Assembly (NCBI GenBank): GCA_021773155.1
Contig: JAJFKQ010000260.1
Location: 1 to 41,531, forward strand
Direction of reading: 5' to 3'
Length of the DNA stretch: 41,531 nucleotides
DNA from: Woeseiaceae bacterium
Lineage (GTDB): Bacteria; Pseudomonadota; Gammaproteobacteria; Steroidobacterales; Woeseiaceae
Shown here: piece by piece, positions 25,358 to 27,138 of the stretch
Layout: every line of letters begins with the position of its first letter
How positions within the stretch are numbered: the first letter of the stretch is position 1
Notes under the pieces: generated by a model
Seen by the model: only the letters and a program-made list of their open reading frames with translations
What the model was told of the DNA's origin: nothing
Databases searched by the model: none
Program-made: the position numbers and the translations under genes

Positions 25358-25385
25358 AAAAAAAGCCCGCGCTATTTGCGCGGGC
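25358..25385 (-). terminator. Rho-independent terminator downstream of the EGSCG peptide gene
   Basis: Minus strand GCCCGCGC-AAATA-GCGCGGGC-TTTTTTT. Confidence 0.85.
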
Positions 25386-25411
25386 TCTCTTTCTATCCAG
25401 GTGTGGTGTTC

Positions 25412-25834
25412 TTAGATAGAACCACCGCAAGAACCTTCACCACAGCTACCTTCGGCATCTTTCTCGCCGTCGTCAGCTTTGTCGCCGCCGCAAGAACCTT
25501 CGCCGCAGCTTCCTTCGCCTTCTTTATCACCAGCTTCGCCGCAGCTTCCTTCGCCTTCTTTATCACCAGCTTCGCCGCAACTGCCTTCGCCTTCTTTCTC
25601 GCCAGCTTCGCCGCAACTTCCTTCGCCGTCTTTCTCGCCGCAACTGCCTTCAGCGTCTTTGTCGCCGCCGCAAGAGCCTTCGCCCTCACCCAGCATGTAA
25701 CCAACGGTCAGGCTTGACATCGCAAACGGGCTGTCGATGGAATCTGCATTTACAGTACCACTGATAGCGAACGTTCCGGCCAGTGCCGCTCCTACAGCTA
25801 AAGCTACAGGCTTAATAATTTTTTTCTCTGACAT
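25412..25834 (-). CDS. Exported low-complexity peptide with nine EGSCG motifs, HvfA/BufA2-like putative RiPP metallophore precursor
   Basis: MSEKKIIKPVALAVGAALAGTFAISGTVNADS signal-like leader, then EGSCG x9; all nine Cys lie in this motif. Good RBS (GTAGGAGAGAAACAAAATG). HvfA-type precursors have the same leader style with EGKCG repeats. Confidence 0.8.
   Translation of the reverse strand: MSEKKIIKPVALAVGAALAGTFAISGTVNADSIDSPFAMSSLTVGYMLGEGEGSCGGDKDAEGSCGEKDGEGSCGEAGEKEGEGSCGEAGDKEGEGSCGEAGDKEGEGSCGEGSCGGDKADDGEKDAEGSCGEGSCGGSI
25501..25608 (-). repeat. 36-bp in-frame tandem repeat (two identical copies plus one diverged)
   Basis: cgccgcagcttccttcgccttctttatcaccagctt at 25501-25536 and 25537-25572 are identical; 25573-25608 is a diverged third copy. 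Confidence 0.9.
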
Positions 25835-25894
25835 TTTGTTTCTCTCCTACGGGTTTTGCCCAAGACCGGGCGCTCATTTTCAGAAAACGGAAGC

Positions 25895-26626
25895 TCAAGT
25901 GCTCCACATCACTGAATCCAAAACATTTTTCTTAATACCTTCCAACTGCTCTTCGCGATTGCCAATAATCGCAATACTGCCATTGCCTACCGGCAAGATA
26001 ACGCCCTGAATATTGACGCCATCCAGTGACTTCGCTGCCGAAACCTTTTCCTCCGGCATCAACAGAATGGTTACCGGGCCATACTTACCCTGGATTACCA
26101 AATGGGGGATTGTCTTGCCGTTGATAACGCAGCTTTGTGCATAGGTGATCAGGCCAGCGTCATGATTCATCTGTGCAAGGTTGCCAGGGACGGCCTCTGC
26201 CAGACGACTATCTGATACCGGCGTATTAGTCACTCGAAGTGCCATTGGTTCGTGGTCGAGGTGCGCCAGTACCTGCTCTTCCAGAGTTCCTTCCATCAAA
26301 ACCATATCCGGCGTCCTGATACCGACGAAAACAGCCAGCAATACAGTTGCTGCAAGCGCGAACCAAACCGGCTTCGGCAACCTTCGGCGAGCGACCAGCG
26401 AAACCACTTTCTCTGTATCAATTTCAGGTAGCTCCGGCATCGTCAGCCCAGGCACGTTAATGGCCATTGCCGCTGCGATCTTTTCATTCAGGGCCAGTAT
26501 CTCGGCGCTGTAAGCCTGGCAAAAGGCGCAGCTATCCACATGTCCCGATTCGTCCTCGAATCCGGGGTCTGCTGTTAGCGCCTCTTTGTAGTCGTTGCAA
26601 TTCATCATCTTACTCATCTGGCTCAT
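25895..26626 (-). CDS. Anti-sigma-factor-like membrane protein with zinc-finger (HxxxCxxC), DUF3379-like
   Basis: GHVDSCAFCQAYSAEI HxxxCxxC motif, single TM (PVWFALAATVLLAVFVGI); ATGA overlap with the upstream sigma factor. Confidence 0.75.
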   Translation of the reverse strand: MSQMSKMMNCNDYKEALTADPGFEDESGHVDSCAFCQAYSAEILALNEKIAAAMAINVPGLTMPELPEIDTEKVVSLVARRRLPKPVWFALAATVLLAVFVGIRTPDMVLMEGTLEEQVLAHLDHEPMALRVTNTPVSDSRLAEAVPGNLAQMNHDAGLITYAQSCVINGKTIPHLVIQGKYGPVTILLMPEEKVSAAKSLDGVNIQGVILPVGNGSIAIIGNREEQLEGIKKNVLDSVMWST

Positions 26627-27138
26627 GAGAAATCCTCACTCGCCGCCTTTTCCCTTAGCTTCAACCGGGCCCGGTGCAAGCGCGTTAATACCGCACCTTG
26701 TTTGAGCCCCATTAGCTCTGCGATCTCGTTCGTGCTGTAGCCCATCAGGACCTGCAGAACCAACGGTTCGCGATAATCATCTTCGAGCCCGTAAATCGCC
26801 TCTCTGAGATCGTTGAGCTCTTCGTTCGGTGCCTCAGCAAGCAGGGCTGACTGAGACGCCGTCAAATTGTCGATATCGACGGTCTCCAAACGACGGCGCT
26901 CAAAGTAGCGAGCGTTTTCCCGCCGTACGATCGTCAGCAGCCATTGTTTAGCCGCTGCATCGTCACGTAGTGCATCCAACGACTTCCAGGCCCTTAACAG
27001 CGCCTCCTGAACGACATCCTCTGCTATCGACTTGTCCCGACAAAGCCAAGCGGCGTAGCGGAACATATCCATGTGAAACACAGCTACGATCTGATCAAAC
27101 CTTTGTCGCCTGTCTTGCGTAGCGTCGCTATTGTTCAT
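26623..27138 (-). CDS. ECF-type RNA polymerase sigma-70 factor
   Basis: DMFRYAAWLCRDKSIAEDVVQEALLRAWKSLD (region 2); REPLVLQVLMGYSTNEIAELMGLKQGAVLTRLHRARLKLRE (region 4). Confidence 0.95.
   Translation of the reverse strand: MNNSDATQDRRQRFDQIVAVFHMDMFRYAAWLCRDKSIAEDVVQEALLRAWKSLDALRDDAAAKQWLLTIVRRENARYFERRRLETVDIDNLTASQSALLAEAPNEELNDLREAIYGLEDDYREPLVLQVLMGYSTNEIAELMGLKQGAVLTRLHRARLKLREKAASEDFS

Follow-up and report, generated by a model that had tools for sequence, protein, structure and literature searches.

To our knowledge, little has been established about how bacteria perceive that copper-binding MNIO peptides are required. A minus-strand gene unit of an uncultured Woeseiaceae bacterium from marine sediment, which encodes an ECF sigma factor, an anti-sigma-like membrane protein and a cysteine-rich peptide precursor, raises this question in a specific form: what would such a unit sense, and what would it control? 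The unit lies in the window (the whole stretch of DNA that was analysed, 41,531 nucleotides), and an earlier note on this DNA had read it as a metal or thiol stress sensor with only the precursor as effector. We consider it likely that the cassette is instead one half of a split ECF regulon that responds to periplasmic copper or redox stress: it supplies the regulators and the precursor, and the enzymes are encoded elsewhere in the genome.

A conserved three-gene cassette

On the minus strand, the unit consists of the ECF sigma gene (27138-26623), the DUF3379 gene (26626-25895) and the precursor gene (25834-25412), followed by an intrinsic terminator (25357..25386). The sigma and DUF3379 genes are joined by an ATGA overlap, and 60 nt separate the DUF3379 stop from the start of the precursor gene, which has AGGAG ahead of it. 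The terminator, read from the sequence, has a GC-rich 9-bp stem (25386-25364) with seven T nucleotides next to it on the minus strand; the stem also appears in a plus-strand scan. The overlap, the gap of about 60 bp with a strong ribosome-binding site and the terminator are all present as the earlier note had described them. Its assignment of the gene products also agrees with profile matches: a 171-aa ECF sigma factor (NF009170, 1.6e-60, over the cut-off) in which Sigma70 regions 2 and 4 are present (PF04542, Sigma70_r2, and PF08281, Sigma70_r4_2, both over the cut-off), a zinc-finger-type membrane anti-sigma-like protein that has the HxxxCxxC motif (PF11859), and a Cys-rich precursor (NF050137). 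Elsewhere in the window, positions 21020-24199 hold a 1059-aa open reading frame that by eye resembles a secreted subtilase-type protease.

The RiPP precursor, of 140 aa with 9 cysteines, has an N-terminus that by eye resembles a signal peptide (approximately residues 1-30), and its repeats are mostly EGSCG, unlike the studied EGKCG. It matches the HvfA-type EGxCG-repeat profile NF050137 (4e-10; 39.2 bits against a cut-off of 19.5) and is the only such match in its own genome. Since its score against the HvfA equivalog NF050188 is 16 bits, below the cut-off of 95, it belongs to the HvfA family in the broad sense and is not an HvfA equivalog. The peptide is Cys-rich and probably binds copper.

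Just 5′ of the ribosome-binding site of the precursor gene, the gap contains a small conserved hairpin, GCCCG-GTCT-TGGGC (25858..25871, minus strand). In most of 59 loci it lies 20-27 nt from the precursor ATG, and its inner pair varies in a compensatory manner. As 12% of shuffled gaps reach the median hairpin score, stability alone is unremarkable, and the case for the hairpin is made by its position and covariation. It may tune precursor expression. A role as terminator or attenuator was ruled out, as no T-run follows the stem.

We surveyed the neighbourhood in two sets of loci, which share genomes, so that their counts are not additive. The first survey covered 60 genomes, including the present one, and found DUF3379 in 44; in all 30 loci that were fetched, an EGxCG precursor lies beside the DUF3379 gene and a sigma gene upstream. 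The second set comprises 61 named loci from Woeseiaceae and other uncultured gammaproteobacterial MAGs. In this set, where contig ends truncate some loci, the sigma gene is adjacent in 60 (the one exception lies at the end of its contig) and all 61 have the precursor next (59 by pattern and two by eye); hemB upstream and tag downstream are each found in 58, and no locus has an MNIO gene within 6 kb of the cassette. The earlier note had set such a survey as its refuting test, and the three-gene order is conserved.

The sigma/DUF3379 pair was also sought class-wide, where DUF3379 scored over the cut-off in 47 of 388 sampled genomes. Among 30 class-wide loci, tblastn detected the sigma gene in 27, and an MNIO gene, in most cases divergent, lies within the 1.5 kb flanks of eight. 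At two loci of other gammaproteobacteria, the pair is divergent from the MNIO gene and accompanied by candidate Cys-rich precursors (with DUF3379 set on the plus strand, L136 556-844 and L163 467-866, both on the minus strand) that are DUF2282-like and CKG-type by eye. In Pseudoalteromonas and Aeromonas (L255, L256), the pair follows VWA-domain-like genes (by eye), its zinc-finger residues are absent, and no EGxCG precursor was seen beside it. Since class-wide loci can lack the EGxCG precursor or the zinc-finger residues, the pair is broader than the three-gene cassette.

A predicted promoter element shared with an unlinked MNIO operon

The genome that carries the cassette (77% complete) has one MNIO gene, which is on another contig (C233) and is followed by genes for a DUF2063/NGO1945 partner and DoxX. 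All three products exceed the NCBIfam equivalog cut-offs, with 420 bits against 360 for HvfB, 283 against 142 for HvfC and 130 against 80 for HvfX. No precursor-like open reading frame was seen on this contig. In relatives, MNIO and DUF3379 genes are on separate contigs in the cases listed, and the presence of one is associated with that of the other (Fisher p = 8e-4, kinship ignored). Most genomes of the genus have one MNIO gene, and one genome (G015) has four. In one relative (L033 9869-10801, minus strand), the longest MNIO reading frame starts from a GTG that precedes the promoter; the true start of the gene is probably the ATG near 10723 (MSTPKSQ...), which is preceded by GGGAGG.

Upstream of the sigma gene there is a predicted ECF-type promoter, GTAATAA-N15-GGTC (27146..27171, minus strand), with the -35 part at 27171-27165 and the -10 part at 27149-27146, which recurs at the MNIO operon and in relatives. 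The sigma ATG follows GGTC after 7 nt, so that a leaderless or near-leaderless sigma message is predicted. This site is the only one in the 41.5 kb window with zero or one mismatch. The sigma gene and the unlinked MNIO operon have in common the element GTAATAAW-N14-GGTCW with identical spacing, and in the second set of loci the element is present in 57 of 61, at or near -33 from the sigma start. The offset of GGTC is identical in 28 of 29 sigma-locus rows and in 19 of 19 MNIO rows; for the 29th row (L012) a later intragenic GTAATA is listed, and the locus's own -33 site, GTAATAAATACTCGACAGGGCAGGTCA, matches the genome scan (G031:C54). As the GTAATA anchor was picked after viewing the sequences, the genome-wide scan is the better, independent test. 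All 41 genomes of the genus have a match to the strict pattern, with about 98 sites in total; the reversed control gave 4. In the genome under study, exactly two sites fit the strict pattern, one at the sigma and one at the MNIO operon, and two more appear when the pattern is relaxed. Because the same distinctive promoter is found at both loci, they look like one split response.

The element also follows the distribution of DUF3379. It is present at 19 of the 23 MNIO loci from genomes that have DUF3379, as opposed to none of the seven from genomes without it (n = 30; p = 1.6e-4, kinship ignored). Two of the four MNIO loci that lack the element in DUF3379 genomes (L034, L042) belong to genomes that carry more than one MNIO gene. 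In two relatives with reduced genomes of 1.5 Mb (L100 and L102, genomes G011 and G004), the element is kept directly upstream of doxX, while no match to the sigma factor, DUF3379 or MNIO was found; here, the element is apparently a relic of the operon. The cassette sigma factor presumably binds the shared element.

Additional sites recur ahead of a gene encoding a secreted AhpC/TSA-family protein. When its orthologues were collected independently of the motif, 26 of 30 had at least 10 of 11 motif bases upstream, compared with 0.2% of shuffles; two of the four low-scoring loci, including that of the genome under study, are at contig edges. The secreted AhpC/TSA-like redox protein is thus a putative third conserved target, and the claim that the precursor is the only effector gives way to a picture in which MNIO, its partner and DoxX are encoded elsewhere behind the same promoter element. 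Single or few sites precede genes for MsrP, DsbC, DsbD, thioredoxin-like, DUF3179 and DM13 proteins. Some such third sites are probably chance occurrences, and only recurrent or family-coherent ones were counted; one (L106) is probably due to chance, since it falls within a reading frame of the opposite strand. One relaxed site in the genome under study (L117, C111:6913-6938) precedes genes for two small proteins, MTAKIKSGFKFW... and MRKLALIAVLL..., which have no Pfam or NCBIfam match; similar pairs follow sites in relatives (L103-L105).

The DUF3379 protein

The predicted anti-sigma protein (25895..26626, minus strand; 243 aa) matches PF11859 with 92.1 bits against a gathering score of 33.2 (4.2e-26), and DUF3379 accounts for its only matches in Pfam. 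Our literature search found no paper that names DUF3379. The N-terminus is of zinc-finger type, with C10, H29, C33 and C36, the last three forming the HxxxCxxC motif. The protein probably has one transmembrane helix (about residues 87-104, by eye), and an extracytoplasmic domain starts at about residue 110. One alignment of distant DUF3379 proteins contained no stretch conserved enough for searching, and the conservation analysis is based on a genus-level alignment. In 51 aligned proteins (L009, L216 and L224 were excluded from the alignments), there is no variation at C33, C36, H122, E126, C166 or H175; C10 and H29 are each kept in 50, and H125 in 47. The invariant residues outside the membrane, such as H122, C166 and H175, suggest that the extracytoplasmic domain could bind a metal. 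Two relatives (L209, L222) have a DUF3379 protein without the N-terminal zinc-finger region, together with the sigma and precursor genes, so the zinc-finger region is not essential to the arrangement.

RseB and MucB are periplasmic regulators of the sigmaE/AlgU pathway. In a structure search against the PDB with a model of the extracytoplasmic domain (pLDDT 83.6, pTM 0.80), RseB/MucB chains take seven of the first ten ranks, with matches that are weak and in no case significant (probability 0.85-0.99, E 0.045-0.13, TMq 0.42-0.51); a search of the DUF3379 profile against PDB sequences gave nothing credible. The model thus weakly resembles RseB/MucB. As in RseA-RseB and MucA-MucB, there would be a membrane anti-sigma factor and, by this weak match, an RseB/MucB-like periplasmic domain, but those systems consist of two polypeptides and DUF3379 of one.

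Comparison with known systems

In Caulobacter crescentus, sigmaF-NrsF controls a small regulon of two MNIO/DUF2063/DoxX clusters and YedY (MsrP) from shared promoters, including that of sigF, and conserved cysteines of NrsF matter for its function as a regulator (PMC3511200). The present system is similar in pairing an ECF sigma factor and a membrane negative regulator with MNIO-type targets. However, NrsF is a DUF1109 protein with six transmembrane segments and not a DUF3379 protein, the Caulobacter promoter is GTAACC-N16-CGAA and not GTAATAA-N15-GGTC, and the DUF2282 precursors of Caulobacter are encoded in MNIO operons, whereas the precursor here is in the sigma operon (PMC3511200). Haemophilus influenzae RpoE2-HrsE and Neisseria SigE likewise combine an ECF sigma factor with a DoxX/MNIO/DUF2063 cluster and methionine sulfoxide reductase, RpoE2 controlling the doxX cluster and msrAB (PMC7907618), and the Haemophilus hvf cluster makes an EGKCG peptide (PMC13419390). 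Unlike the membrane protein DUF3379, the anti-sigma factor of RpoE2/SigE is a 67-aa cytoplasmic zinc protein, and in those systems precursor and enzymes are clustered, with HOCl as tested inducer, whereas here they are split (PMC7907618). In Cupriavidus metallidurans, an ECF sigma factor and a predicted membrane anti-sigma factor (rpoQ-rsqA) adjoin the copper-induced MNIO genes gigPABT; these genes are adjacent and divergent, with the precursor inside the gig operon, instead of unlinked, and control of gigPABT by RpoQ is assumed (PMC10304878).

The precursor resembles captophorins/Buf_EGKCG-oxazolin in its signal peptide, repeated EG-x-CG and HvfB/HvfC/HvfX-type genes in the genome, and differs from them in having mostly EGSCG repeats and a split gene cluster (PMC12668002, PMC12452194). 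In the available text of the MNIO-peptide literature, EGSCG substrates are not described; the landscape paper reports MNIO-unlinked precursors for Buf1 and Buf2 and sigma/NrsF genes in Buf1 clusters, and its main text does not mention DUF3379 (PMC12668002, PMC12452194). In content, the present system corresponds to known ECF-controlled MNIO regulons, and its proposed function is like that of the Caulobacter sigmaF and Haemophilus RpoE2 regulons. What appears to be new is the putative DUF3379 anti-sigma family, the predicted GTAATAA/GGTC promoter, and a precursor that is encoded with the sigma factor and consistently apart from its enzymes.

Proposed regulation and alternatives

In the regulon that we propose, membrane-bound DUF3379 would hold the ECF sigma factor inactive until a signal in the periplasm, with copper or thiol/oxidative stress as the likeliest candidates, acts on the extracytoplasmic His/Cys domain and leads to release of the sigma factor. 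A periplasmic metal or thiol sensor, as the earlier note had suggested, is plausible, and related MNIO systems respond to metal or HOCl and bind copper (PMC10304878, PMC3511200, PMC7907618). The freed sigma factor would transcribe its own operon from GTAATAA-N15-GGTC, providing both positive feedback and the EGSCG precursor, and would also drive the unlinked HvfB-HvfC-HvfX operon and the secreted AhpC/TSA-like redox protein. HvfB-HvfC-HvfX would then turn the cysteines of EGxCG into thiooxazoles that bind copper, and the peptide, once mature, would serve as a copper buffer of the envelope. Gene content, conservation, co-occurrence and the promoter element common to the unlinked loci are observations, whereas binding by the sigma factor, anti-sigma activity, the inducer, the peptide modification and the copper binding are predictions.

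Three other explanations deserve consideration. The three genes might share only their location, with the precursor transcribed from a promoter of its own in the 60-nt gap, where there is room for one and where the conserved hairpin directly precedes the ribosome-binding site. We regard this as improbable: none of 59 gaps contains a copy of the shared promoter motif or a second promoter, the only sigma-70-like match in 24.5-28.5 kb is upstream of the sigma gene, and the hairpin lacks a T-run, the single terminator being after the third gene. It is about equally improbable that another sigma factor reads the shared element, or that a repressor or activator acts there, and that the cassette sigma factor has other targets. 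At least ten other ECF-like proteins are encoded in the genome, and the two reduced genomes keep the element at doxX without the sigma gene; but these appear to have lost MNIO and its partner from the doxX operon, so that the site is relic-like, and the element stands directly before the sigma factor's own gene, has -35- and -10-like halves at fixed spacing, and is absent from the MNIO loci of genomes without the pair (0/7).

Slightly less credible still is that the peptide, a Cys-rich protein, binds metal without being modified and has no tie to the distant MNIO operon. The lack of linkage and the difference between EGSCG and EGKCG would fit this, as would the silence of the available literature text on EGSCG substrates. 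Yet the genome has no other NF050137 match, no other precursor-like reading frame was seen at the MNIO locus, DUF3379 and MNIO tend to be present together, and the two promoters match.

Within the split regulon, which remains our preferred reading, a bolder version makes DUF3379 a one-protein periplasmic copper sensor. Here, an RseB/MucB-like domain fused to the anti-sigma factor would bind Cu(I) through H122, C166 and H175 (with H125/E126) and so trigger release of the sigma factor, and the thiooxazole peptide would compete for the same copper, closing the loop. As other members of the family adjoin MNIO genes, this would make the pair a control system, widespread in Gammaproteobacteria, for several classes of copper-binding MNIO peptides. 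Taken as a whole, with the feedback loop and the class-wide role, this version is possible, though we would put it at well short of an even chance.

Both gene order and a promoter element precise enough for regulon prediction in raw genomes tie DUF3379, an uncharacterized anti-sigma-like family, to MNIO peptides. A search confined to MNIO neighbourhoods would miss such precursors, since none of the 61 loci has an MNIO gene within 6 kb of the peptide gene. Woeseiaceae are common in marine sediments, and the split system may therefore be ecologically widespread.
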